Source: Candidatus Roizmanbacteria bacterium RIFCSPHIGHO2_12_FULL_38_13 (GTDB taxonomy: Bacteria; Patescibacteriota; Microgenomatia; UBA1406; GWC2-37-13). From it: DNA of 38,323 bases. The position numbers were made by a program, and so were the translations under genes. Location: the NCBI GenBank assembly GCA_001789555.1, contig MFZZ01000022.1, forward strand, positions 1-38,323, read 5' to 3'. This document shows positions 1-31,891 of this stretch, in pieces. Below the pieces are notes generated by a model. It saw only the letters and a list, made by a program, of their open reading frames with translations. It had not been told where the DNA came from and did no database searches. The first letter of the stretch is position 1. The number at the start of each line of letters is the position of its first letter.

Positions 1-813
1 CACACTTCCGTCACCACGTATGTAGACTTGATTATTATTAAAATTGAAATTCGCTGTCGTTCCACTGTCTCCTATCCCAAGAAATGTATTTGTACCGTCA
101 CCTATAGTAGTTAGGTTATTGATCGTTGTTACAGAATCAAGAGTGGTTTCCAGTGAGAAAGTTGTCTCAGTTAAATCAAGGTCAGTTCCTGCAGTGTAAG
201 TAGTATTCGAATCTGTGATTTCTGAAAGCGTGCTATTTATCGTGATCTCATTGCCACTTGTGCTTATCGAAATATTTGAACCCGCCTTAAGATCAACAGT
301 TCCAGTAAGTCCCTCAATTGAGTCAAGAGCCGAAGTTTGGACAGTCGAGATGGCAGTTGAACTGATTACAGGAAATTGTGGGTCTCCTGTAATTACGATT
401 CCATCTCCTGCTGTGATTTCATAAACAACATTTGGAGCTGTAATGTTTTCCTCAAAAAAAGCAGGTTCTGTAAATCGTGATTGTAGGTTAAAAAAAATTG
501 TTGCATCTTCAGCCGCCTTGACATCTTCAAATTCTCCAAGAACTTGGGCCAGATCCTTTGGGTCGATAAGAAATGTACTGACGCCTTTTTCTTGCAAGAA
601 TGAGAAACTGGGAGATGGTATCTGGTTCTTATTTATGGCATTTAGAGTCTTTAGATAGTCCTTAAATGCTGCAAATGTTAAAAATATTGTAACGGCAACT
701 ATAAAACCAAAAATTGGGTATTTTATTTCCGATGAAAGCCACCAACCCGATCTAAATGGGTGAAATTTTTTTGAGAAGATCTTTATAGTAATCCTTTTTA
801 CAATTTCTGTCAT
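1..813 (-). CDS. Fibre-like surface protein, N-terminal part (cut by window edge)
   Basis: An open frame runs from an ATG at 813 to the window edge (271 codons, no stop reached), so only the N-terminus is seen. It has a basic cytoplasmic start, one membrane segment at about residues 32-50, then a Ser/Thr/Asn/Gly-rich beta-type region with motifs such as ITAGDGIVITG and TTIGDGTNTF, as in phage-tail-fibre-like and beta-strand-repeat surface proteins. No cleavage site is obvious, so it is probably a type II anchored protein displayed outside the cell. The gene is divergent from the F1-like ATPase operon across a 231-bp AT-rich gap. No good Shine-Dalgarno precedes the ATG. The C-terminus lies outside the window and may carry a tail-fibre end domain like that of the 9258-10889 protein; this is inference. 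Confidence 0.75.
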   Translation of the reverse strand, partial: MTEIVKRITIKIFSKKFHPFRSGWWLSSEIKYPIFGFIVAVTIFLTFAAFKDYLKTLNAINKNQIPSPSFSFLQEKGVSTFLIDPKDLAQVLGEFEDVKAAEDATIFFNLQSRFTEPAFFEENITAPNVVYEITAGDGIVITGDPQFPVISSTAISTVQTSALDSIEGLTGTVDLKAGSNISISTSGNEITINSTLSEITDSNTTYTAGTDLDLTETTFSLETTLDSVTTINNLTTIGDGTNTFLGIGDSGTTANFNFNNNQVYIRGDGSV

Positions 814-1044: not shown

Positions 1045-1827
1045 ATGAAATTAGACAATATGTCACCCCGGGAACTGCAAACATATTGCTATCGGATATT
1101 TTTTTTTGTATTGGCCTTTTTGATTTTGGTCAATCCCGTATATGCGCAAAAATCTGCCTCAATAGCTACCTACCACATAATAGAGAACTCAAATGTACTT
1201 GATGGTTATATTGTTGCCACTGAAAAAGAGAAATTTCTTATCAGCAACGAGGCCTATCAGCCAAACTTGATTGGCATTGTTAACAAACAGGCTGCAATTG
1301 AAATACGTCTTAACAACAATCCCGATAGTTATCCTGTAAGCACAAGTGGACAGACATATGTTTTAGTTTCATTAGCAAACGGTGACATTAACAGCGGTGA
1401 TTACATAACTTCCTCACCAATAGAAGGTGTCGGAATGAAGGCCACCGTCCCCGGGCCAATTATCGGGGTTGCTCTTGAAGATGCTAGTAACCCAGATGAA
1501 AACACCATAAGCAAGGTGAAAATAAATATTCAAAAAGACTACAATATTGACCAATATAATGCTTTCGGGAGTACCGGTTCTATAAATCCGCTTTTTGGTC
1601 AAGGATTTGAATTCATCAAATATCTGCTTGGTGCAATAGTCTTAATAATTTCGCTCTTGTTTAGTTTCTTATATTTCGGTAGATTATCAATGAAGGGTGT
1701 TGAAGCTTTGGGTAGAAATCCTTTAGCATCTAGACGGATTCAAGCTGGCATTATTTTAAATGTAATTATGGCGATTTCTATTTGTTTAATTGGCTTAGTA
1801 ACAGCAATGTATATTATACGTTCGTAA
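1045..1827 (+). CDS. F-type ATPase c-like subunit fused to a secreted ectodomain
   Basis: 260 residues; ordinary c subunits have about 70-90. Residues 16-34 form a signal peptide ending in VYA, then about 150 residues of beta-type ectodomain, then a two-helix hairpin (about 189-212 and 236-257) joined by a polar loop holding GRNP at 223-226. The loop matches the c-subunit RQP loop, and the segment VEALGRNPLASRRIQAG reads as a c-subunit loop. Counting 20 residues from the loop Arg, where canonical c subunits have the ion-binding Asp/Glu, gives Ile244. Neither helix core has any carboxylate, and the Gly-rich packing motif of helix 1 is missing. The topology (N-terminus out, loop in, C-terminus out) is that of a c subunit. 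It is the first gene of the operon, 6 nt before the b-like gene. Assignment rests on gene order plus the loop. Proton translocation by the usual mechanism looks impossible. Confidence 0.8.
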   Translation: MKLDNMSPRELQTYCYRIFFFVLAFLILVNPVYAQKSASIATYHIIENSNVLDGYIVATEKEKFLISNEAYQPNLIGIVNKQAAIEIRLNNNPDSYPVSTSGQTYVLVSLANGDINSGDYITSSPIEGVGMKATVPGPIIGVALEDASNPDENTISKVKINIQKDYNIDQYNAFGSTGSINPLFGQGFEFIKYLLGAIVLIISLLFSFLYFGRLSMKGVEALGRNPLASRRIQAGIILNVIMAISICLIGLVTAMYIIRS

Positions 1828-1833
1828 AAATAT

Positions 1834-2553
1834 ATGATAGAAATAATACAAAACTTTTCTACTTCAGCCTGGTGGATACCTTATGCAAGTTTACTTGCCA
1901 ATCTAGCCTTATTGTTGGCCGTCCTTTATTTATTAAACTATCGCGGATCAGATGCAGCAGTAAAAACTGCAGACGCGCGAATTGCGAAAATGTTTAAAGA
2001 GGCAGAGTTTCGTGGAGCTCAAATTGTTACCGAAGCAACCGAACGTGCAAAAAAAATACTTTCCGAGGCAACGATATCTAAAATCTCACTGGAAACGCGT
2101 GTTGATCGAGCTTTCGATGACATCATTATCATGGTACAAAGTCGTGTAAAGGACGAAAATCTCGCATTTTCATTGCAACTAAAGAAAAAAATGGATGAAG
2201 AAATATTATTGCTTGAACAGGAGGCAATAAAAATTATCGAAGATCTCAAAGAACATGGAAAAAAACAGCTTGGTTACTTTACCGAGAGCATGCAAACGGA
2301 AACAAAAAATATCCATGAAGAGCTTTTCCGTGACATCGAACAAAATGTTGAGGTAATAAAACAAGACATGAATACATATCGTGAACGTCAGTATAAAAAG
2401 ATCGATCAAAACATGAATATGATTATACAAGCAACATTTAGAGAATATTTGAAATATATTTTATCCTACGAAAATAACGAGGACATTATTTTTAAGTCGT
2501 TAGAAAAATATAAAAGTGATAATTTGGAGGCAAAAAAAAATGGAAATCAATAA
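1834..2553 (+). CDS. F-type ATPase b-like stator subunit (long form)
   Basis: 239 residues, with one membrane helix near residues 14-36 followed by an almost continuous charged helical/coiled-coil region. This is the architecture of subunit b, the peripheral stalk that holds alpha3beta3 still against the membrane part. Ordinary b subunits are about 155-170 residues, so this stalk is roughly 70 residues longer. Its place directly after the c-like gene and before delta matches the c-b-delta order of F1Fo operons. The stop codon lies inside the start of the delta gene (14-nt overlap), which suggests translational coupling. Sequence similarity alone would be weak; the call depends on architecture and context. 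Confidence 0.75.
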   Translation: MIEIIQNFSTSAWWIPYASLLANLALLLAVLYLLNYRGSDAAVKTADARIAKMFKEAEFRGAQIVTEATERAKKILSEATISKISLETRVDRAFDDIIIMVQSRVKDENLAFSLQLKKKMDEEILLLEQEAIKIIEDLKEHGKKQLGYFTESMQTETKNIHEELFRDIEQNVEVIKQDMNTYRERQYKKIDQNMNMIIQATFREYLKYILSYENNEDIIFKSLEKYKSDNLEAKKNGNQ

Positions 2554-3043
2554 TGCGAATTCACATAGGATTATGTTAGATCAGATTTATACGCTGCACG
2601 AACTGCAAATTTATTTACGTTCGTTAAAAACTGCTGAAAATCTCCGTTTTGAACAATCGATAAATTTTTTTGAAGAATTAAGAAATACCCTTCCCTCGCT
2701 ACTCATGAAATATCTCCAAGATTATGCCGAAAGTAATAAAATTAACCTACAAAATCAGGAGCAAGTTTTAAAACTAAGCGTGGATCTTGTTAATTATCTA
2801 GAATCAATTCCTGTGGTCGAACTTACATTTCCTATTGATCTGACGTACAGACAAATTATTAAAATCTGTAAATGGTGGCGTACTAATAGTAATGACGCTG
2901 TTGTTGTCAATATTAAAATCAATCCCGAACTTCTTTCGGGTCTCACCATTGCCTTCAAAGGCAAATATTTCGATTATTCACTTAATCGATGGCTAGAGCA
3001 TGAAGGGGCAGTTGCTATAGCAAAATTACTTACCCCGACTTAA
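2540..3043 (+). CDS. atpH: F-type ATPase delta subunit
   Basis: 167 residues from the ATG at 2540. This start is chosen over an upstream in-frame codon at 2516 because a GGAGG Shine-Dalgarno at 2526-2530 sits 9 nt before it, one of the few clear ones in the window. The body is helical, and the C-terminal motif NPELLSGLTIAFKGKYFD matches the delta/OSCP family end, where the typical form is NPxLIGGxxxxVGDxxxD. Delta joins the b stalk to the top of alpha3beta3. The gene overlaps the b-like gene by 14 nt and is 5 nt from alpha. It is about normal length for the family. Confidence 0.85.
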   Translation: MEINNANSHRIMLDQIYTLHELQIYLRSLKTAENLRFEQSINFFEELRNTLPSLLMKYLQDYAESNKINLQNQEQVLKLSVDLVNYLESIPVVELTFPIDLTYRQIIKICKWWRTNSNDAVVVNIKINPELLSGLTIAFKGKYFDYSLNRWLEHEGAVAIAKLLTPT

Positions 3044-3048
3044 ATATT

Positions 3049-4530
3049 ATGGCAGAGGCATTTGAGGCATATCTCAATAGTACAAGCGAATTTGGGACCG
3101 TTACCCAGGTTCGCTATCCAATGATTTCCGTTGAAGGTCTTCCAAAGGCTCATCCTTTCGAAACTCTCGTTTTTGAGGATGGTCAAATAGGTCAAGTTTT
3201 TGATATGGAATACGATCTCTTGCATGCTCTAGTTTTTTCTTTAGACCCAATACTTATCGGAGCAAAAGTTACTCGCACAAACCAAACACTGGCAATTCCC
3301 GTTGGAGAAACTCTTAAAGGAACTACAGTCGATGCACTTGGCCGGCCTACGCGTCTTGCCAAAGTTTTTACTACCAGAAAGAAACAAAGACAGATTTTTA
3401 CAGAATCATTAGGTATTGATCGTCGTGTCAGTATAAAAAAACCTTTTCTTACTGGTGTAACAAAAGTTGATTTACTGATACCTCTTGGCAAAGGTCAACG
3501 GCAATTGATCTTAGGCGATGCCAAAACCGGTAAAACAAATTTCTTACTTAACGCACTTGTAAATCAGGTGAATTCCGAAAATACCGTCGGGGTATACGCT
3601 GCAATTGGTAAAAAAAGAAGCGAAGTCAAATATCTTGAGGAGTTTTTTCAAAAACAAGGTATTGTTGATAAAGTCATATTGATAGCTGCGACTTCATCAG
3701 ATCCCAATAGCATGATCTATATTGCCCCCTACACTGCTATGGCAATTGCCGAATATTTTCGAGATCTTGGTCAAGATACTGTTGTGATTTTTGACGATTT
3801 AACCACTCATGCGCAAAGATACCGTGAAATAGCTCTTTTAAGCAGACGATTTCCCGGACGTGAGTCATATCCGGGTGATATTTTTTACACTCATGCTAGT
3901 TTGGTAGAACGTGCTGGAAATTATAAACATGAAAAAAAAGGTGAAGTTTCGATAACATGTCTACCTGTTGCAAGTACGGTCGAAGGCGATATCACCGGGT
4001 ATATCTCAACAAATTTGATCAGTATGACCGACGGTCACATTTTTTTTGATACCGAAATTTACAATAAAGGTGAACGCCCGGCGATCAATATTCCTCTTTC
4101 GGTAACCCGTGTCGGTAGAAAAACCCAGTCTATTTTGGTTAGACGAATTAATCGAGAAATACTTTCGCTTCTATCACAGTTTCGTACTCTTAGCCAGATA
4201 GCTCATCTAGATTCCGAACTATCACTAGAGTCGAAGGAGATTTTACACAAGGGTAAGTCGCTCATGGTTATGCTAGATCAATCGACTGGGACTATACCGT
4301 ACGCAATACAGATAATTATATTTGGCCTAATCTGGCTTGATGCGGCCGATCTATCAAAAGAAAAAGTCTATAATGGCATTTTGAACGACCTCATAGGATT
4401 AAATAATAATCCTGCCGAACGTAAAGAAATTGCTTCAATCATTAACAGTAAAACTCTCGACGAGTTTCTTTTGCGGTTAAAGCAAAAGCAAGATATCATT
4501 GATATATGCAACAAAAATCAAATATCATAA
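3049..4530 (+). CDS. atpA: F-type ATPase alpha subunit
   Basis: 493 residues, near the family norm of about 500. The N-terminal beta-barrel is followed by the nucleotide-binding domain, with a P-loop GDAKTGKT at 156-163 (canonical GDRQTGKT), and by SVTRVG at 351-356, whose Arg354 corresponds to the arginine finger that completes the catalytic site on beta. Alpha normally binds nucleotide without hydrolysing it. The arginine finger suggests that the complex still hydrolyses or makes ATP. It lies 5 nt after delta and overlaps the gamma start by 25 nt. The sequence is clearly diverged from textbook alpha, for example GKKRSEV where GQKRSTV-like motifs are usual. Confidence 0.93.
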   Translation: MAEAFEAYLNSTSEFGTVTQVRYPMISVEGLPKAHPFETLVFEDGQIGQVFDMEYDLLHALVFSLDPILIGAKVTRTNQTLAIPVGETLKGTTVDALGRPTRLAKVFTTRKKQRQIFTESLGIDRRVSIKKPFLTGVTKVDLLIPLGKGQRQLILGDAKTGKTNFLLNALVNQVNSENTVGVYAAIGKKRSEVKYLEEFFQKQGIVDKVILIAATSSDPNSMIYIAPYTAMAIAEYFRDLGQDTVVIFDDLTTHAQRYREIALLSRRFPGRESYPGDIFYTHASLVERAGNYKHEKKGEVSITCLPVASTVEGDITGYISTNLISMTDGHIFFDTEIYNKGERPAINIPLSVTRVGRKTQSILVRRINREILSLLSQFRTLSQIAHLDSELSLESKEILHKGKSLMVMLDQSTGTIPYAIQIIIFGLIWLDAADLSKEKVYNGILNDLIGLNNNPAERKEIASIINSKTLDEFLLRLKQKQDIIDICNKNQIS

Positions 4531-5369
4531 ACGAAATAGAATTTCTCGAAGATCTTAGACAACTCGCTCATGTTTACGAGACTATATCTACAATAAAAAT
4601 GCAGCAGATCCGTGAGAGTATCATTCAAAGCCGTTCTTTTTTCGCCGAGCTTATGGATATCTTTCAGTCTCTCCAGTATGAAAACTTGGATACAATAAAT
4701 GAGAATATTGCTACTTTGACCGAACAACGTGGAATCAGTTTAAAACCAATGGCAACAGTTATTATTACTGCAAATACCAAATTTCATGGCGATATCTTGC
4801 GGAAAACCTTTAATTACTTCATTAAAAAATATGACAGAGCAGGTGATCTTTTTGTAATTGGAAAAATTGGTCGAGAATTGATACAACAATACAAAAGCAG
4901 CATTAATTTTAAAGAGTTTGATATTTCGGACATAAACTTTACAATTCAAGATCTAAAGCCCATTCTATTTCATCTCTTGCAATACAAAAAAATTCATGTT
5001 TACTATGCGGTATTTAAAAATTTGGTTGAACAAATCCCAACAGATGCCGATATCGCAGATATTTTAAAACTCACACCTGAAGAAATTAAAGAGCAAACCG
5101 GTAAGGAAAAACAAACTGATTTTCTATTTGAACCTTCCGGGCAAAAAATTGCTGGCTTCATACACAACAGCGTTATTGCTATGTTGCTTCTGCAGACTGT
5201 GTCGGAAACTCATCTTGCCCGGCTCGCTTCAAGATTAAATGCTATGGACGCTTTGTTGCAAAGAATTGATATCGATGTAAAAAAACTTGATTCCAAACAA
5301 CGCCGTTTTGAAAAATCGCTCCAAAGCATCAAGCAGGCCGAACGTCTTTCTGGAATCGCGTTATGGTAG
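4506..5369 (+). CDS. atpG: F-type ATPase gamma subunit (rotor shaft)
   Basis: 287 residues, the family length. The N- and C-terminal helices that form the central coiled-coil shaft can be seen: an N-terminal helix holding STIKMQQIRES (compare the family's KAMKMVAAS region) and a C-terminal helix with ETHLARLASRLNAMDALLQR (compare SEHAARMAAMDNA). Between them lies the Rossmann-like domain, with VIITANTKFHGDI in place of the usual TSDRGLCGG region, so the foot domain is strongly diverged. Gamma couples rotation of the ring to conformational change in beta. Its start lies inside the alpha gene, so translation is probably coupled. Confidence 0.88.
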   Translation: MQQKSNIINEIEFLEDLRQLAHVYETISTIKMQQIRESIIQSRSFFAELMDIFQSLQYENLDTINENIATLTEQRGISLKPMATVIITANTKFHGDILRKTFNYFIKKYDRAGDLFVIGKIGRELIQQYKSSINFKEFDISDINFTIQDLKPILFHLLQYKKIHVYYAVFKNLVEQIPTDADIADILKLTPEEIKEQTGKEKQTDFLFEPSGQKIAGFIHNSVIAMLLLQTVSETHLARLASRLNAMDALLQRIDIDVKKLDSKQRRFEKSLQSIKQAERLSGIALW

Positions 5370-5401
5370 TTAAAAATTTGAAACAATTGAGTTGCAGCTA
5401 A

Positions 5402-6778
<1,377 letters not shown>

Positions 6779-6791
6779 TTTAGCATAAAGT

Positions 6792-7130
6792 ATGCAGCAG
6801 CCAAATGTAAGTCAACCTGTTAATCTTCAAATAAGTATCCTCTCACCGGACAAAATAATATATCTAGGACAAGCGGAAGCTGTTACATGTAAAAATGAAA
6901 AAGGCGTATTTGATATACTTCCACTACACAGCAACTTTATTTCACTTATTGATGACTATATCATTATTCATCTTCCTCGCGGACGTGAACACAAGATTAA
7001 GATCGGGCGAGGTCTTTTGAAGGCTATCGAAAACAAAATTACTATTTTGCTTAATATCGATCTCACCGAGAAAGACGTTATCTTCAAAGCACTATTTAAA
7101 CAAATTGAAGATAATCAAAAAAAAACCTAA
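6792..7130 (+). CDS. atpC: F-type ATPase epsilon subunit (short form)
   Basis: 112 residues against about 130-140 in most bacteria. The N-terminal beta-sandwich is present, with GVFDILPLHSNFISLI matching the family's GxFGILPGHAPL motif. After it only a short segment remains, so the C-terminal helical hairpin that inhibits ATP hydrolysis in many bacteria is reduced or lost. It lies 13 nt after beta and ends the operon, convergent with the next gene 9 nt away. Loss of the inhibitory arm would fit an enzyme meant to run as an ATPase; this is inference. Confidence 0.85.
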   Translation: MQQPNVSQPVNLQISILSPDKIIYLGQAEAVTCKNEKGVFDILPLHSNFISLIDDYIIIHLPRGREHKIKIGRGLLKAIENKITILLNIDLTEKDVIFKALFKQIEDNQKKT

Positions 7131-7139
7131 TTATTTTGG

Positions 7140-9185
7140 TTATCGTTCTACTGTTGCTCCGGGCGAGGACTCTTTTGGTAGTTCGAGTTTAGGTTCAACT
7201 GCGGCCGGAGGAGGTGTTGGTAAATTTAACTCTTGAGTTGGAGCTTCTTCTGTTGTCTCTGTCGCCTGCTGTTGAGCGATCTGCTCATCATATTTCTGCT
7301 GGAACGTTTTTAAATCATCCTGGGCTTTTTTATAATCATCCTCTGCTCTTGCAGGATCAACAAGGCCTATCACCACCTGCATCTGCTGGACCGCACCTCG
7401 ATAGTTTCCGTTTTGATAATAAGCCCAAGCTAGATTGTAGTGTGAGTTAGCCCAATCTGGTTTTAAAGATACAGCTTGCTCAAAAAGTCTTTGTGCACTT
7501 TCATAATCTTGTAAAAGATAGAAGACACTTCCAAGTTCGAGACGAAGAACTGGGTTATAACGATCAAGACTTATTGCCTGTTGATAGGAAGCAATGGTCC
7601 ATACAGGGGCTTGTTGTACTGCGTTTAAGATCTGACGATAGATCCCCGCCAGGTTTTGCCAATTTGTGACCCTTGCCGGATTCAATGCGACCGCAGCTTT
7701 TGCTTCATTAATCGAAATCTGGAGCGATTGTGTTACAGCAGTTCTTTCCTGTTCAGTCAGTTGAGCTCCCGTTTGAGCTTTTGCGGCCAAATTGTTGGCA
7801 ACAAGTAAATTTGCTTGAGAAAAATTACGTCTGAACTCTTCACTGTAAGGATTATACTGAACAGCCTGCTGTTGATTTTGATACAATTTCTGAAGGCTGT
7901 TTTCAGATATTGCGTCAATTGATCTTTTGAAATAAAGTTCTGACAAAAAATTACGTCCGACAAAATATATGGAACTACCTATAAATAAAAATCCCAGAAC
8001 TGAAAGTCCAATGTGTGCAGGTACTAATTTGCTTAGATCAACTTCATATTCGTCAAGTTTCTGTTCCCCTCTCACGTCTGCAACAACAAAGGCCATACTT
8101 GCAAAAAATAAGAAAAAGTTGATAAGCGACGGTGGTAATAGGAAAAGAAGAGCCAGTGAAGTAATAAACATTCCTTTAGTTTCAATCTGTGTCTTATTTA
8201 AATCTTTGAAGACATAATAAATCAAAAGTCCAAATCCTACTAATCCCAAAAGACCCAGTTCTGTAAAAATATGCAGTATTGCAGATCGCGAAGAAGCAAA
8301 ACTGCTTACCTGCCATAATGAAGTTAGGTTATATTGAGGATTTCTTACCTGTGTGAACAAGGAACCAAAATTATCTACCCCAACTCCAAACACAGCGGTA
8401 AGTGGATTTTTCAATATCTCAAGTGCAGCAAACCAAGATAGATTTAGTGGAGGAAGTATTACTTGTGTCCCTTCGGTCAACATGGATTGAATAACAGTGT
8501 AGAGTGTAAATGCAATTGTAACTGCAGCAGCGGTAATTGTAACTCCTAAAAAGGTCGTATATATCCTTTTATTTTCTGAATCCTTTAAAGCACCTTTCTG
8601 TATTCTCCAGATATAAAGAGAGGCGCCAATAATAATAAACAACAGGAAGCTCACTAAATCAAATGAGGAACCGATGGTATTAAAAGAATTGTTTTTGAGG
8701 AAGGACCAATATGATGGAAGATTGATTTTTTGAAATGGGTCGACCATCATGATCATCGAAATTATTGCCACGAACAACCCCGACACCGAAAGTACCAGCG
8801 CAGGTTGAACTTTGGTTTTCTTCAGGAAATATGAGCTATACAAATAAAACACGATCATCGAAATTATCATTACCAGTCCGTACTGTGGCCTAAATATTGC
8901 CTGTATTTTATTTGGAGTAACGAGAATGATGGATAAAACATAGGCAAGAATAATAAGTAAAAATGGTTGTAACGAAGGATTGGTTGCCCAAGTAACTTTT
9001 TTTGTGAAAATAAATTTACTAAGTGAAACGAACAACAAAAGCAAAGCAAATAAAATAAGAAAGTAAAATTTACTATAAATTAAAAACTCTCGAGTAATAG
9101 GTAGAAAAAATAATGGGAACAAAAAAATAAAACCTATGATAAGGACATAATGAATAAAATTAAAAATATATGATTTTTTTTCCAT
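7140..9185 (-). CDS. O-antigen-ligase-like (Wzy/WaaL) membrane protein with TPR tail
   Basis: 681 residues. About ten to twelve membrane helices occupy residues 1-420, with an O-antigen ligase/polymerase-type loop (FGVGVDNFGSLF, then an external loop, then ILHIFTELGLLGLVGFG). A soluble tail carries several TPR units at about 440-620 (for example HYNLAWAYYQNGNYRGAVQQ) and ends in a Gln/Glu/Pro-rich segment. Such proteins join or polymerise surface glycans; fusion to TPRs is common in CPR bacteria. The substrate cannot be told. A well-formed promoter lies directly upstream (9192-9220), with the ATG 6 nt after the -10 box, so the mRNA is probably leaderless. Confidence 0.8.
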   Translation of the reverse strand: MEKKSYIFNFIHYVLIIGFIFLFPLFFLPITREFLIYSKFYFLILFALLLLFVSLSKFIFTKKVTWATNPSLQPFLLIILAYVLSIILVTPNKIQAIFRPQYGLVMIISMIVFYLYSSYFLKKTKVQPALVLSVSGLFVAIISMIMMVDPFQKINLPSYWSFLKNNSFNTIGSSFDLVSFLLFIIIGASLYIWRIQKGALKDSENKRIYTTFLGVTITAAAVTIAFTLYTVIQSMLTEGTQVILPPLNLSWFAALEILKNPLTAVFGVGVDNFGSLFTQVRNPQYNLTSLWQVSSFASSRSAILHIFTELGLLGLVGFGLLIYYVFKDLNKTQIETKGMFITSLALLFLLPPSLINFFLFFASMAFVVADVRGEQKLDEYEVDLSKLVPAHIGLSVLGFLFIGSSIYFVGRNFLSELYFKRSIDAISENSLQKLYQNQQQAVQYNPYSEEFRRNFSQANLLVANNLAAKAQTGAQLTEQERTAVTQSLQISINEAKAAVALNPARVTNWQNLAGIYRQILNAVQQAPVWTIASYQQAISLDRYNPVLRLELGSVFYLLQDYESAQRLFEQAVSLKPDWANSHYNLAWAYYQNGNYRGAVQQMQVVIGLVDPARAEDDYKKAQDDLKTFQQKYDEQIAQQQATETTEEAPTQELNLPTPPPAAVEPKLELPKESSPGATVER

Positions 9186-9257: not shown

Positions 9258-10889
9258 TCAATCTTGATCAATAAAAATTAACAATCTTCCGCACTCAATA
9301 ACTTTTCCGTCCGGATCGGTAAATGAACGATATTTTTGAGGACATAATCCAGAAGAAAGACCGATGCTGCTTGACGATGTAAGTGCGTATCCTACGCTGA
9401 AATCATCACTCTCAACTTTAGCACCATAACCTGGAACTTTACTTGCACCAACCCTATCACCCGTCACTATTTCTCCAGAAATTGTTGAAAACAGTATTTC
9501 TATTTGGCCGACAAATCCTATAAGAACCGCACTTTGTTTTGATGTCAATTTATTACCAATAAATCCTGCATTGTTGGTGACGGCTCCAATAATTTTTTCA
9601 TTAGGCAGTGACGCGTGTGCCCCTTTGGTAGATAGTGAAATTATTGAGCCACTTTGCACATCGGACTTATCAAAAAGTGCTACATATTCGGCAAAATCTG
9701 CTCCACTGGTTTCATATATTACTCCATTTTTGTTTAACCTTATTGATCCAACTTTATCCCCACTAGATTGTTCCGTGGCTCCAGCAAAAAAATCAATGAA
9801 ACTTGAAGACTCTGTTTCTGATGAAGAACCAAGATATAAACCTAAAACGCCTGTATCAAAACTGTCAATATTTGTAATATTTCTAATCGAGGCTACAGAT
9901 GAGTTTGGGTTATTCGCGCTTACCGAAAGTAAATTTGTTGGCTTTAATGTACCTATTCCCAATCTTCCTGAATTTATTAATACATTTGCTCCTGTCGCCG
10001 GCTGTAACATTATATCTCCGCCTATCGGATTATTTGCTTTAAGGAGAATTCTCTGTCCTTCTATATTAAATGTTCCGTCCGTAGAAAATAATGATGGATT
10101 TTCGACATCCAATTTTATTTGACCCTTATCATTAATATAGGGTAAAGATGACTTATCGGTCCCAACTGACATTCCTTCTAGCTTCGCAGCATCTCTTGCG
10201 TAGTTTGCTGTAAAAATTTGATATCTTGGTGCTAATTCCTTGCCTGAACCGATAGTTACCCCAAGATATACTGATTGGTTTGAGTCAAAGATTGATTCTG
10301 CCAAGGGCTTCATCTGACAATCGGCGCCAATTCTTACATTGAAGACGCCGTTATAATCGGGAATAATTCCCTTTGCGCCAATACAAGAACCTGTATACAA
10401 TATTTTTCCTGCTACTGCCGCATCATAAAGTCGAAAAATTATGTCTCTTTTAGATTGCAAAGGTTTTCCGTCTGGTTCACTAATAGTACCTTTAAAAGGA
10501 AGTATTCTGCTTTTCGTATCAATCGATAAATTTGATAAGCTATATAGCTTTCTATAAAGATTAAAGTTTATGAATAGTAAAACAAAAAGAATAATCAAAA
10601 AAGAAAACGTAAAAAATTTCACAAATTTATTACTAAGAGAGTTAAAATAGCTTGTCTTTTCAACAGTTTTAATGTTAGCTTTAATATTTAAGCTTAAGTC
10701 TAAAGAGTCTTCAATTTTTTTAGTAAAATTCTTATAAAAAGTATTACTTATTTGATTATTATCGTTAAGCCACTCAATCCAATTTTTTAACATAAATAAA
10801 CGTTCGTACTTTTTAGAAAAAGATATTTCCTTATCAACCTCGCCTAAATATTTCTCAAGAGTTTCCGTATATTTGCTTTGATTTTTCAT
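9258..10889 (-). CDS. Anchored fibre-like surface protein with G2-type end domain
   Basis: 543 residues from the ATG at 10889. The frame is open upstream to 10970, but those codons cross the promoter and run into the MITE, so they are not coding. The protein has an N-terminal cytoplasmic helical part, a membrane helix at about 94-109, and a domain with LPFKGTISEPDGKPL, FRLYDA, NGVFNVRIGA and TANYARDAAKLEG that is typical of tail-fibre-like proteins. A beta-strand region with GRLGIGTLKPTNLLSV follows, then a C-terminal domain from about 396 (GADFAEYV) that resembles the Peptidase_G2/intramolecular-chaperone end domains of phage fibres. That last domain also resembles the ectodomain of the c-like ATPase protein. 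It is probably a surface adhesin or fibre. Confidence 0.75.
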   Translation of the reverse strand: MKNQSKYTETLEKYLGEVDKEISFSKKYERLFMLKNWIEWLNDNNQISNTFYKNFTKKIEDSLDLSLNIKANIKTVEKTSYFNSLSNKFVKFFTFSFLIILFVLLFINFNLYRKLYSLSNLSIDTKSRILPFKGTISEPDGKPLQSKRDIIFRLYDAAVAGKILYTGSCIGAKGIIPDYNGVFNVRIGADCQMKPLAESIFDSNQSVYLGVTIGSGKELAPRYQIFTANYARDAAKLEGMSVGTDKSSLPYINDKGQIKLDVENPSLFSTDGTFNIEGQRILLKANNPIGGDIMLQPATGANVLINSGRLGIGTLKPTNLLSVSANNPNSSVASIRNITNIDSFDTGVLGLYLGSSSETESSSFIDFFAGATEQSSGDKVGSIRLNKNGVIYETSGADFAEYVALFDKSDVQSGSIISLSTKGAHASLPNEKIIGAVTNNAGFIGNKLTSKQSAVLIGFVGQIEILFSTISGEIVTGDRVGASKVPGYGAKVESDDFSVGYALTSSSSIGLSSGLCPQKYRSFTDPDGKVIECGRLLIFIDQD

Positions 10890-10898
10890 ATTAAGGAA

Positions 10899-10927
10899 AT
10901 AGTACAACCATTTAAAAAAATTGACAA
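10899..10927 (-). promoter_or_regulatory. Promoter of the 9258-10889 fibre gene
   Basis: TTGTCA (10922-10927), a 17-bp spacer and TACTAT (10899-10904) on the minus strand, with the ATG at 10889 nine nt downstream. It decides the start codon. The MITE target duplication begins 8 bp upstream of the -35 box. Confidence 0.65.
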
Positions 10928-10934
10928 TTGTAGA

Positions 10935-10942
10935 TATTGTAG
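10935..10942. repeat. Left target-site duplication of the MITE
   Basis: TATTGTAG directly abuts the left terminal inverted repeat; an identical copy abuts the right one. Confidence 0.8.
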
Positions 10943-11123
10943 GTAAGAGTTCACGCTTCTTGACACACACCTGCCTGCCGCAGGCAGGTTGTCATTCCCG
11001 CAAAGGCGGGAATCCATTCTCCAGACTATTTAAAAAATCTGGATCCCCGACTTAATCGGGGATGACACACAATAATAATTGATATATTATGACAAAGTTT
11101 TGTCAAAGATCGTGAACTCTTAC
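10943..11123. mobile_element. MITE, 181 bp, with 23-bp terminal inverted repeats
   Basis: The ends 10943-10965 and 11101-11123 are inverted copies matching at 20 of 23 positions; the outer 13 bp (GTAAGAGTTCACG) are identical. Directly outside lie identical 8-bp copies of TATTGTAG (10935-10942 and 11124-11131), the signature of a transposase-made target duplication. No coding sequence is inside. The interior holds three GC-rich palindromes: CCTGCCTG..CAGGCAGG near 10971-10990, ATTCCCGC..GCGGGAAT near 10994-11013, and ATCCCCGA..TCGGGGAT near 11043-11063. The last two recur inside tatD. It sits just upstream of the fibre-gene promoter. No autonomous partner is visible in the window. Confidence 0.85.
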
Positions 11124-11762: not shown

Positions 11763-12512
11763 ATGGCAATAAAAGAAAGACGAACGAAAATTTTACTAGC
11801 ATTACTTCTTATGTCCGGTGAAGACTTTTATTTTGTTAAATTTGACAACGTATTTCTTCCTTCTTTTGATTTAACTTTAAACAGAAAGACACTATCCACA
11901 CTTAAAAACCTTGAAAAAGAGATGCTTATTGAGAAAAATACTGACATAAATCTAAAACATCCAACATATAGATTGACAAGCGAAGGATTTAAGAATGTAA
12001 GTTTAATTTTCCCGGTTTTCCGTTTTACAAAAGATAAATGGGATGGTATTTGGCGAATTTTGTCATACGAGATACCTGAAAAAAAACGTGAACTACGTGA
12101 TCGTCTTCGTCGCGAAGTTGCTAGTTGGGGTCTTGGACCTTGGCATCGTTCATTTTGGTTAACTCCTCATCCGGTAATACCTATTTTAAAAGAACTTATC
12201 ACTGGTGAAGAGAAAACTTATGTCCAAGCATTTGAATCAAGTCATGTATTTGGAGACCGAGAAATATTAATTGAAAAAGTATGGAATAAGTCGCAGCTTG
12301 AGAAAAATTATCGCACTTTGTTTATGAAATGGCACGATATCTTGTCCAAAGATGAAGATAAGATAAAAAAAATGAAGGACGTTGTTAATCACTATGTTGA
12401 TATCTTAAAAGTCGATCCTGGTTTGCCAAAAGAACTTCTCGGTGAAAAGTGGATTGGATTTGAAGCAATCAGTCTTTTTAGAGAGATTAGGGCAATATTG
12501 ATGGATATATGA
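11763..12512 (+). CDS. PaaX-like transcriptional regulator (winged helix plus Cas2-like domain)
   Basis: 249 residues. The N-terminal ~85 residues look like a winged helix (RRTKILLALLLMSGEDFYFV, then TLKNLEKEMLIEK, TYRLTSEGFKNV). Residues near 95-140 hold WDGIWRILSYEIPEKKRELRD followed by RLRREVASWGLGPWHRSFW, the pattern of the PaaX middle domain, which shares the Cas2 ferredoxin-like fold. Such genes in CPR genomes are often labelled Cas2, but there is no CRISPR array or cas gene here and the N-terminal domain argues for a DNA-binding regulator. Its target is unknown. It has its own strong promoter and converges with the next gene with 2 nt between stops. Confidence 0.65.
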   Translation: MAIKERRTKILLALLLMSGEDFYFVKFDNVFLPSFDLTLNRKTLSTLKNLEKEMLIEKNTDINLKHPTYRLTSEGFKNVSLIFPVFRFTKDKWDGIWRILSYEIPEKKRELRDRLRREVASWGLGPWHRSFWLTPHPVIPILKELITGEEKTYVQAFESSHVFGDREILIEKVWNKSQLEKNYRTLFMKWHDILSKDEDKIKKMKDVVNHYVDILKVDPGLPKELLGEKWIGFEAISLFREIRAILMDI

Positions 12513-12514
12513 TG

Positions 12515-13105
12515 TTAATTTAAAAGATATTGTAGTTGGCTATTTTTTTTCACTTCTACTCTATTGAACTTGATTTTATTGACCAAACTTAAGCTAGAGC
12601 TATCATATTCCGGAATAAATACAAGCGTATATTTATCATACTTTACCTTTGATAGCAGTTGAAATGGAGATATCTGTTTCAAGAGAACAAGATAGTTTTG
12701 ATTATTGTTTCTATAGTGAACAAATGAATTGTCGTAGCTAATCTTGTTCCTAGTAAATATATTAACGTCGGTGTTTAAATCTACATTTAATACTTTGTAT
12801 CTCGTGGCTAAATTTGAGACAATCTGACTATCCTTACTATCCGTTAATATCATTTCGATCGTTCGGTCATAAAATGGCATATATTTACCTATGCACCCCA
12901 ATACTTCTTTTTGAGATTTTGGGTTTATAAGGATATCGAACTTATTGTCCAGCCTCATGTAAACAGTTAGTTTACCATCCTCGTTGCACAAGGCTATTAT
13001 CGTTTTTTTTAACTTAATATTAGATATGAAAAAAGTAAATATAACTATGATGCTCACAATGATGGTAGTGAAAAATAAACGATGAGAAATAATTTCTTGT
13101 TGCAT
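12515..13105 (-). CDS. Anchored, metallo-beta-lactamase-like protein lacking the metal motif
   Basis: 196 residues with one membrane helix at about 10-30. The segment DNKFDILINPKSQKEVLGCI and the following GKYMPFYDRTIEMIL match the start of the metallo-beta-lactamase domain of ComEC-type proteins, where one expects ILIDxG, LGKYLPFWDRxIDLVILTHPHADH. Where the HxHxDH metal motif should be, the sequence reads TDSKDSQI, and the protein ends soon after. It is probably a catalytically dead relative or an accessory protein. It lies 7 nt downstream of the LysM/M23 gene on the same strand, so the two are probably co-transcribed. The family call is inference from a short stretch. Confidence 0.5.
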   Translation of the reverse strand: MQQEIISHRLFFTTIIVSIIVIFTFFISNIKLKKTIIALCNEDGKLTVYMRLDNKFDILINPKSQKEVLGCIGKYMPFYDRTIEMILTDSKDSQIVSNLATRYKVLNVDLNTDVNIFTRNKISYDNSFVHYRNNNQNYLVLLKQISPFQLLSKVKYDKYTLVFIPEYDSSSLSLVNKIKFNRVEVKKNSQLQYLLN

Positions 13106-13112
13106 ATAGTAG

Positions 13113-14177
13113 TTACTGCAAGAAATTTAGAGGATTCAAAAGTACGCCACCGGAACGAATCTCAAAATGTAAATGAATTCCTGATGAACGTCCGGTTGAT
13201 CCCATTACCCCTATTCTTTCTCCTTTTGTGACTGCCTGGCCCGCAGAGACTTCAATAGATGAAAGATGTCCATAAAGACTCTGATATCCATTGGCATGAT
13301 CAATAATGATATGACATCCATATCCATAAGCTAGACAAGCGGTATAGGTCACGGTACCTGTGTCTGCAGCTAGTACCGGTGGGCTTGATCCGTTTGCAAT
13401 ATCAACTGCCATATGGTACCAAACCGGATAGGTAGTAATGTTGCCAGAAGCTGGCCATATAAAAGTAGAAGTACCTTGAACACCAGCCTGAATTTGGGCA
13501 AAAAATGAGGTACCGGTGTCTTGTTTTGGAACTGGTTTAATAGTCCCGTCAGGCACATATAAAATCTGCCCTGGTGTCAACTGAAAACTATCTGGATCTG
13601 CAAAATCGTTAAACGGGAAATTTACAATGTTTTGAGCATCAATGTTATATTTTTTTGCTATCGTGTAAATATTGTCTCCTGGAGCAACCTTATGGACCAC
13701 ACCTGTCACCGGTGGAATATCGAGAACATCGCCGGGTTTGATTATCTCTGAACTCAAATCATTAGCCCATTTGATAGTATCAATACTGACGTTAAATTTT
13801 GAGCCAATTGACTCAAGGGTATCACCGGTACGCACGGTATATGGTTCGATTTTATCCCTTGGTTTTAGGGAATAAATTGTTGTCAAAGAGCTTTCATATG
13901 GATCAAAATCTACAGACGAACTTTGGAAGTAAGATTGGCTATCATTAAATGAGCTTTCAAAAGGATTATTTTCAGCAATTACCGGACCGGCTATGAGAAC
14001 AGTTATAAGTAGTAAAAAAAATGAGGTGTTTAAAAATGAGCTTGAATATTTACCTCTTTTAACAATAAGGAGAGCGACAACTATATCTTTTATTTTTTCA
14101 AACTGGGCGCCAAAATGTATAGCTCGTGAAAGGAAATATTTTTTTAAAAATAGAAAAAACCCTTTAAAATCGCTCAT
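13113..14177 (-). CDS. LysM-containing M23 peptidase (cell-wall hydrolase)
   Basis: 354 residues. A basic N-terminus and membrane helix at about 51-68 are followed by two LysM peptidoglycan-binding modules (about 112-156, YTVRTGDTLESIGSKFNVS; about 160-209, HKVAPGDNIYTIAKKYNI) and a C-terminal M23 domain (about 238-350). The M23 metal/catalytic residues are present: His255 and Asp259 (HMAVD), His304 (YGHL), and His335/His337 (HLHFE). It should cut peptide cross-links in peptidoglycan outside the membrane, for growth, division or remodelling. It lies 12 nt downstream of the glutamate dehydrogenase gene and 7 nt before the degenerate metallo-beta-lactamase-like gene. Confidence 0.9.
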   Translation of the reverse strand: MSDFKGFFLFLKKYFLSRAIHFGAQFEKIKDIVVALLIVKRGKYSSSFLNTSFFLLLITVLIAGPVIAENNPFESSFNDSQSYFQSSSVDFDPYESSLTTIYSLKPRDKIEPYTVRTGDTLESIGSKFNVSIDTIKWANDLSSEIIKPGDVLDIPPVTGVVHKVAPGDNIYTIAKKYNIDAQNIVNFPFNDFADPDSFQLTPGQILYVPDGTIKPVPKQDTGTSFFAQIQAGVQGTSTFIWPASGNITTYPVWYHMAVDIANGSSPPVLAADTGTVTYTACLAYGYGCHIIIDHANGYQSLYGHLSSIEVSAGQAVTKGERIGVMGSTGRSSGIHLHFEIRSGGVLLNPLNFLQ

Positions 14178-30631: not shown

Positions 30632-31891
30632 ATGCATATAGTACAGGATTTTCTGGTAAGACTTAAAAATTCCTTTAAAAAATTATCCCGCTCACAAAAA
30701 ATAGCAGTTATTGCCATCCTTCTTCTTCTCCTTATCAGCATCTTATCTCAGATAATTATGAAAAATAGACGTACGTTTACTTCCCGCGGAGCAGAATTAC
30801 CCGCCACACCGCCCACACCGCCGTCAAATAGTTATGCCAAAGCACTTTACCTGAAAAATAGTAAAAACGTCAATGATACCTATGTCAGTGCACCAGCTCC
30901 GATAAAACTTACAAATGCTTATACGCTTGAAGCATGGGTGAATATACCGAAAACAGCAACCTCGGAATCTCAGTTACTTCTTTATGATATTGTTACTATT
31001 TCAGCAGATAAAGAAGCAATAGGTTATTCCTATCTTGCAAAAATTCAGATTGCCAAAATATACGGTACAAATGATTTAACTGCTTCATTTAATGTTCGAA
31101 CCAATAAATTATATCCTGGTCAGGAAGTGGATGAATCTGGTCTTGTAACTTCCATAAATAATGGTTTAGTTTTGAAATATGACCAATGGAATCATATCGC
31201 CGGTACATTTGTAGCCAGCGACGGAGTATGTAAGATTAAGTTATATATTAACGGTATTGACTCAGGATTTCCTTCAGAAGACGCAAATAATTGTTCTACC
31301 TCTCCGTTTGTAGGAAATGCCATTCTGATAGGCAAAACCCAACAAGCGGCAGAAGGCCCTTATTATCTTCACGGAGCAGTCGATGAGGTTAAGATGGTAG
31401 AAAAAATTAAATACTCAAAAGACTTTATTCCTTCTCTGAATCCGGGTGGTGTTGACGAAAAAACACTCTTTTTATATCATATGGATGGTGACCTTAATGA
31501 TTCGTCATATTCTCATTATAATGGAACTCTAACAGGCAGCAATTTTGAATTTATACCAAGTACCATTCGTACAAATAACAGACACCCGATTATTTCAACA
31601 CTGAATGTAACTTATGCAAAAAAAGGTCAATCAGTAACCAGGTCCTTCATTGCGCGGGATAGTTCGTATAACAGTATGATCTCGCAGATAGAGAATCTGC
31701 CGCCCGGACTTAGTATCACAAATTGTAAAGATATGATAGTAACACCTAAGACAGGATCTAAATATATGCAGCATAAATGCGTCATTCAAGGCAATCCTAC
31801 TAAAGTCGGTGAATTTTTCACTACATTTAAAGTGACAGACAATCAAGGCGCTACTTCTGAACAAAATTTCCGCTTTATAATAAGAAACTGA
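30632..31891 (+). CDS. Membrane-anchored LamG-domain surface protein
   Basis: 419 residues. An N-terminal membrane helix lies at about 23-45, then a Pro-rich linker, then a LamG/concanavalin-A-like domain at about 66-275 (YTLEAWVNIP, YDQWNHIAGTF, IKLYINGIDSG, HGAVDEVKM, which are the hallmarks), then a C-terminal Ig-like domain of about 100 residues (LPPGLSITNC, FFTTFKVTDNQGATSEQNF). Likely a carbohydrate- or protein-binding protein on the outer face of the cell. It is divergent from the O-antigen ligase gene and followed 20 nt later by rpiB, which has its own -10 box. Confidence 0.82.
   Translation: MHIVQDFLVRLKNSFKKLSRSQKIAVIAILLLLLISILSQIIMKNRRTFTSRGAELPATPPTPPSNSYAKALYLKNSKNVNDTYVSAPAPIKLTNAYTLEAWVNIPKTATSESQLLLYDIVTISADKEAIGYSYLAKIQIAKIYGTNDLTASFNVRTNKLYPGQEVDESGLVTSINNGLVLKYDQWNHIAGTFVASDGVCKIKLYINGIDSGFPSEDANNCSTSPFVGNAILIGKTQQAAEGPYYLHGAVDEVKMVEKIKYSKDFIPSLNPGGVDEKTLFLYHMDGDLNDSSYSHYNGTLTGSNFEFIPSTIRTNNRHPIISTLNVTYAKKGQSVTRSFIARDSSYNSMISQIENLPPGLSITNCKDMIVTPKTGSKYMQHKCVIQGNPTKVGEFFTTFKVTDNQGATSEQNFRFIIRN

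Follow-up and report, generated by a model that had tools for sequence, protein, structure and literature searches.

By profile comparison and predicted fold, residues ~36 to 165 of an unusual c-like ATPase subunit and residues ~423 to 532 of a nearby fibre-like protein are one and the same domain. In the structural models, this domain is of the phage β-tulip/Peptidase_G2 type. The c-like gene is the first of an operon at 1045-7130 (+) that encodes c-like, b-like, δ, α, γ, β, and ε subunits. The operon lies in the window, by which we mean the whole stretch of 38,323 nucleotides that was analysed; contig C22 of a 1.2-Mb genome begins with this window. A second, ordinary F-ATPase is encoded on contig C31 of the same genome, with an 'a' subunit and a normal c of 79 aa. 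The parts of the window that bear on the argument are these:

1..813, −: N-terminal part of a membrane-anchored fibre-like giant, divergent from the operon; the contig end cuts off the rest
1045..1827, +: c-like subunit with ectodomain, 260 aa; ATP-synt_C match at residues 196-257, below cut-off
1045..1146, +: N-terminal hydrophobic segment or predicted signal peptide of the c-like subunit, residues 1-34, hydrophobic at 11-29, junction VYA/Q
1150..1539, +: c-like ectodomain, residues ~36-165, phage β-tulip/Peptidase_G2-type fold by profiles, AF2 model, and Foldseek
1609..1818, +: c-subunit hairpin with GRNPLA loop and, where a normal c has its ion-binding Glu, Ile
1834..2553, +: b-like peripheral-stalk subunit, single N-terminal TM
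2516..3043, +: δ (OSCP) subunit, start likely at 2540 (OSCP, 1.3e-6)
3049..4530, +: α subunit, Arg finger kept (SVTRVG)
4506..5369, +: γ subunit (ATP-synt, 1.9e-22)
5405..6778, +: β subunit, P-loop GGGGVGKT and GERSRE kept
6792..7130, +: ε subunit (ATP-synt_DE_N, 3.8e-12)
7140..9185, −: membrane protein with O-antigen-ligase-like region and TPRs, adjoining the fibre gene in related genomes too
9258..10970, −: fibre-like protein with a membrane anchor (TM at ~116-134); 570 aa if started at GTG, 543 aa if at the ATG at 10889
9375..9704, −: Peptidase_G2/β-tulip domain of the fibre-like protein, residues ~423-532, starting at GADFAEYV

A prophage origin of the locus is rejected, because its neighbours in the window are genes of cellular type (M23/LysM peptidase, glutamate dehydrogenase, pyridine-nucleotide oxidoreductase, Rho, formyltransferase, and Na/H exchanger). 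The genes at 11763-12512 (249 aa, by eye a PaaX-like regulator) and 12515-14177 (M23/LysM peptidase) keep adjoining the fibre gene in several relatives (L036, L038, L040, and L051). A Laminin_G_3 (concanavalin-like lectin) domain protein, possibly a further surface adhesin, is encoded at 30632-31891.

One domain in the c-like subunit and the fibre protein

The sequence-only reading had noticed an ordered motif pattern common to the c-like ectodomain and the end region of the fibre protein, and it had proposed that the first resembles the second. The pattern is present where it was placed. The fibre positions then numbered 408-505 of 543 correspond to 435-532 when the ORF is read as 570 aa, from a start 27 codons further upstream. 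Homology of the two regions is supported by BLASTP, shuffles, profiles, hhalign, and predicted folds. BLASTP of the c-like against the fibre protein gave an E value of 8e-6, with 27% identity over 117 columns. Their Smith-Waterman score was 86, compared with 37.4 ± 5.8 (SD) for shuffles, none of which did as well (0/2000), and with 46 for the next-best ORF of the window. An HMM of 17 c-like ectodomains that held no fibre rows matched the fibre protein at 426-532 (i-E = 2.7e-12). The reverse test, with a fibre-only HMM that is effectively a profile from three sequences, matched 80/80 c-like ectodomains. Alignments of the ectodomain and of the fibre domain without common rows were compared by hhalign, with a probability of 99.94% (E = 2.7e-36, 135 columns); with four fibre orthologues alone, the result was 99.0% (8.7e-18). 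Controls with seven other protein families and with column-shuffled alignments gave at most 0.8%. Finally, a profile of fibre and giant domains placed the ectodomain at 1141-1557 (+; E = 3.6e-30) and the fibre domain at 9264-9719 (−; E = 3.7e-41). These two sites, ~8 kb apart, were its only matches in a scan of the whole genome.

For the fold, we built AF2 models from two alignments without common rows and compared them by strand order and common PDB matches. The pLDDT values were 89.5 for the ectodomain and 90.5 for the fibre domain. Both models have ten strands in identical order (ectodomain, 7-13, 23-27, 30-33, 42-46, 52-54, 62-76, 87-90, 97-99, 105-110, and 122-133; fibre domain, 11-20, 31-35, 38-41, 48-52, 56-59, 69-83, 94-97, 104-106, 113-117, and 148-155). 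In Foldseek, the fibre domain finds its best PDB match in the C-terminal fragment of phi29 gp12 (1.7e-5; TM 0.62/0.60). The ectodomain matches the capsid decoration proteins of Pam3 and BB1, the phi29 head-fibre base gp8.5, and gp12 (TM 0.57/0.52). Among predicted viral structures, a pre-neck appendage protein ranks first for the ectodomain (2e-10; TM 0.72), ahead of many large phage proteins, some of them named tail fibres. A PDB sequence search with the ectodomain profile gave no significant match, though the fold search did, and the c-like protein, used alone as the query, had no relative among viral contigs. The β-tulip group consists of gpD, gp87, and gp8.5, with gp12 listed as a structural homologue (review, PMC7602432). 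Profile and fold comparison of the two regions gave a significant match and the same fold; neither a missing match nor differing folds was seen.

Convergence, by which the likeness would come from β-rich, Gly/Ser/Thr-rich sequence and not from homology, could appeal to a pairwise identity of no more than 27%. It is already refuted by the profile E values, the shuffle and column controls, the colinear strands, and the common structural matches, and we give it next to no credence. In the tree, 52 ectodomains are split from 20 fibre/giant domains by one branch (SH-aLRT 99.5), and the ectodomain of the window, at 45% to other c-like proteins, is nearer to them than to the fibre of its own genome. 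On these grounds, we reject the idea that the fibre domain was recently copied into c inside this genome. One ancient fusion would be consistent with the split.

The domain had also been called Peptidase_G2-like, which stands for the fibre copy and fails for the c-like copy as an enzyme. The fibre protein passes the gathering score of Pfam PF11962 (27.7 versus 25 bits for the whole protein; 31.6 for the domain alone), and the match spans 414-474. The c-like protein of the window has no match to PF11962 at E ≤ 1. At that level the profile finds 4/52 ectodomains, weakly (best, 2.2e-4); it finds 10/20 fibre/giant copies. The gp12 C-terminal fragment (3gqh) starts at the Asp of DFAEYF. In the fibre/giant copies that have a residue there, the DFAEY Asp is present in 14/14 and the Glu in 15/15. 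Neither occurs in the 52 c-like copies: in these, the Asp column is most often Gly, and the Glu column is taken by hydrophobic or small residues. Because the DFAEY Asp and Glu are gone and the PF11962 matches are few and weak, the ectodomain is not likely to be an autoprotease; judged by sequence, it is a relative with the fold and not a Peptidase_G2 enzyme. The earlier label of an end domain is too narrow, as giants hold the domain mid-chain and the fold also occurs in cement proteins and fibre bases.

Ion site, F1 motifs, and giant fibre genes

The c-like protein begins with a signal-peptide-like N terminus, and a two-TM hairpin comes later in the chain. The ectodomain is therefore predicted to lie outside the membrane, as the sequence-only reading had it. 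The A-Q at the signal-peptide junction is found again in many homologues. The hairpin has two TM helices and the RNP loop, and GRNPLA is invariant in this loop, which meets γ/ε. At the ion-site position, 97/97 c-like proteins have I, V, F, L, A, T, or G, and a carboxylate is present in 0/97; the normal c of the same genome has Glu at this column. The few acidic residues of the c-like proteins are at the cytoplasmic start of TM2, and TM1 is without the Gly-rich motif of true c. PF00119 ('a') gave one match in the whole genome, in the normal operon, and none with the window operon. A single-sequence profile of 'a' found none in 80 loci. The F1 motifs are kept (β P-loop, 65/65; GERxRE, 65/65; α Arg-finger motif, 69/69), and b has an N-terminal TM in 65/68. 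Because the ion site is lost and the F1 catalytic motifs are kept, the system looks selected for ATP hydrolysis and not for ion transport.

A scan of GTDB genomes found 92 relatives. We analysed the loci of 80 of these, and the ectodomain is present in all 80. The relatives are Roizman-, Levy-, Woese-, Davies-, Shapiro-, and Amesbacteria, WWE3, Sungbacteria, other Parcubacteria, and one genome labelled Saccharibacteria. The order c-b-δ-α-γ-β-ε recurs across Microgenomates, WWE3, and Parcubacteria, and 56 loci hold every subunit. In a sample of the phylum, 38/380 genomes have the operon. Operons of the Woesebacteria type (L062, L071, L090, L102, L120, and L147) encode c-like, α, γ, β, and ε, with b and δ undetected. 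There are also c-like genes without F1 genes alongside (L035:14049-14855, L036:7273-8121, L038:5711-6505, and L039:2051-2908). These orphan second c-like genes adjoin a TPR/O-antigen-ligase-like protein and a fibre protein (in L039 the contig stops before any fibre gene). Three c-like genes are present in genome G060. At L041:10090-10922 (also L112), the c-like gene is in two frames (109 + 168 aa), from a frameshift error or in a decaying copy.

A large Thr/Ser/Asn/Gly-rich fibre-like ORF, membrane-anchored where checked, lies within 2 kb in 55/80 loci, and the same composition is found in 22/146 non-adjacent ORFs. About 25 loci have no adjacent giant; many of them, not all, stop at contig ends. 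In 13 further loci, mostly on long contigs, a giant of ~425 (cut) to 3868+ aa adjoins in 10. The giant is divergent upstream in most Microgenomates and WWE3. It is co-directional downstream in Sungbacteria/Parcubacteria and Daviesbacteria, often at 2-200 bp. In L147 and L149, it is co-directional upstream and overlapping or nearly so, and the L147 giant overlaps the start of the c-like gene. With three arrangements of giant and operon, functional linkage is therefore favoured over frozen order. The giants that were checked have ordinary N-terminal TM anchors. Pfam Peptidase_S74 (chaperone of endosialidase) is found in those of L053, L147, and L149. By local profiles, 12/18 complete giants (11/17 distinct) carry S74 or, in L078, the G2-type domain of the c-like protein; most have S74 chaperones and not the c-like protein's own domain.

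Other features of these loci were seen as well. A MerR-like DNA-binding helix-turn-helix is at the N terminus of the giants L078:71-9733, L071:5507-9811, and L149:3666-12119, with the membrane anchor next where checked; Pfam itself calls the MerR-type HTH in the L078 and L149 giants. Several giants finish with a conserved WWIV motif. In Levybacteria-type loci, the giant and the c-like gene are separated by an additional gene of ~312 aa, whose product looks by eye Fic-like, with a winged helix at its C terminus (L055:4607-5560, and the same position in L057, L059, L063, L067, L073, L074, and L086).

A possible surface motor and its rivals

The giant fibre gene that usually adjoins the operon hints at an ATP-driven surface motor. 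The c-like subunits would form a membrane ring, with the hairpin loop on γ/ε; a ring of about ten is an assumption taken from c subunits. Each subunit would bear one β-tulip domain on the outer face. ATP hydrolysis would turn γ-ε-c against α3β3-δ-b, and hence the ring of exposed β-tulip domains. Because the rotor is without a carboxylate and the operon without 'a', no usual ion pumping or ion drive is expected. The β-tulip crown may be a dock or oligomerisation site for fibres, namely, the neighbouring giant and the 9258-10970 protein. It is best seen as a fibre dock because phage versions of the fold oligomerise and seat fibres. In phi29, gp8.5 is trimeric, and its tulip base bears a spike and docks the fibre on the capsid (PMC7602432). 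As both the head-fibre base and a tail-appendage domain, the phi29 fold is our model for the docking role. The machine would then rotate or pull surface fibres. Ring formation, exposure, rotation, fibre contact, and biological use are the steps that we infer.

We give somewhat less than even weight to an ATP-driven, ion-uncoupled F1 motor whose rotor shows docking domains of phage type, set in a ring, by which surface fibres would be gripped or turned. More tentatively, we propose a rotary surface motor of Patescibacteria, in which an ion-dead c-ring crown docks and spins giant fibres to probe, grip, or move on hosts. Net rotation is not assured, because there is no 'a' to hold b against the rotor; the cytoplasmic N terminus of the giant may be one candidate anchor for b in its place. 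A domain-to-domain pairing of the c-like protein with giants is a guess, because of the prevalence of S74 in complete giants. Orphan c-like genes without adjoining F1 genes (L035, L036, and L038) count against the motor reading, as do the ~25 loci in which no giant adjoins. Woesebacteria-type loci without b and δ misfit a simple rotor and stator, and they would need another anchor or a non-rotary action.

Such an action could be that of a transmitter, in which ATP-driven conformational changes reach, via γ/c, an outer ring that stays still and controls proteins of the surface. We consider this unlikely, with a real share of the probability left to it because some operons are without b and δ (e.g., L071, L102, and L147). 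Similar non-rotary transmission of force or conformation has been proposed for mycoplasma F1-like ATPases, of which types 2 and 3 are without F0 homologues and are tied to membrane proteins or gliding (PMC3369863). Moreover, α matches the MMOB1660 gliding model, but far under the cut-off (377 versus 600 bits). However, c-like, b, and δ, which a rotor and stator need, are kept in most loci, and the loop that meets γ/ε has its invariant GRNPLA. It is improbable that the complex instead powers export, chaperoning, or anchoring of giant fibres, with the ectodomain ring catching or folding them as they emerge. F1-type ATPases are kin of export ATPases, and giants hold intramolecular-chaperone domains, to one of which the ectodomain is kin. 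But the operon is without a conserved export channel or chaperone gene, the giants, with their ordinary TM anchors, could use Sec, and the ectodomain is missing the DFAEY Asp and Glu. We regard as very improbable that the operon is still an ion pump, which would use the normal 'a' encoded elsewhere in the genome or another carboxylate and would carry the ectodomain as a passive cap. No residue able to replace Glu stands at the ion-site column in 97/97, the few acidic residues are found where TM2 starts on the cytoplasmic side, and TM1 has no Gly-rich motif.

Meaning and comparison with known systems

If the motor reading is true, this is a rotary ATPase with extracellular mechanical work as its output. 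The operon is a concrete candidate for the means by which Patescibacteria, uncultivated and presumably episymbiotic, handle their surface fibres. Rotary ATPases are described as ion-coupled, and we know of no exception, the mycoplasma F1-like ATPases included, in which a membrane rotor can be recognised. In the present case, the rotor subunit is retained, the ion site is lost in every copy examined, and a phage-fibre domain is gained beside giant fibre genes. A phage structural fold is present in a core energy enzyme. A search of the open literature, with subscription journals outside it, found no description of this operon.

The c subunit of F-type ATP synthase is like the c-like protein in its two-TM hairpin, its GRNP loop, and the company of F1, δ, and b genes. 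It differs in that the c-like protein is without the carboxylate and an operon 'a' and has a large exported domain in front. Alternate F1F0 or N-ATPases pump ions and have both 'a' and a c with the carboxylate. Their operons are also second ATPase operons, but the window operon has neither of these two features. Among phage proteins, the gp12 C-terminal domain of phi29 (PF11962; 3gqh and 3suc) is like the fibre copy in fold, Pfam match, and DFAEY. It has an insertion of ~45 residues and sits on a fibre end, whereas the c-like copies are on a rotor subunit. The β-tulip cement and decoration domains (Pam3 cement, BB1, TW1, and HFTV1) and gp8.5 (6qyy) have the same fold by Foldseek; unlike them, the ectodomain is fused to the membrane c-like hairpin of a cellular ATPase.

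The mycoplasma type 2 and 3 F1-like ATPases, including that of M. mobile gliding, are alike in being a second F1 with no ion coupling and a membrane or surface role, and mycoplasmas too are small host-dependent cells. These types are defined as without c, b, and δ homologues and with X0 proteins of their own (PMC3369863). The window system falls outside this definition, since c-like, b, and δ are present in most loci. The mycoplasma clusters are also without phage-type domains. The ectodomain alone is a known fold in a new setting, and the machine is a variant of the F-type ATPase that has the F1 and the c hairpin but not the carboxylate or 'a'.
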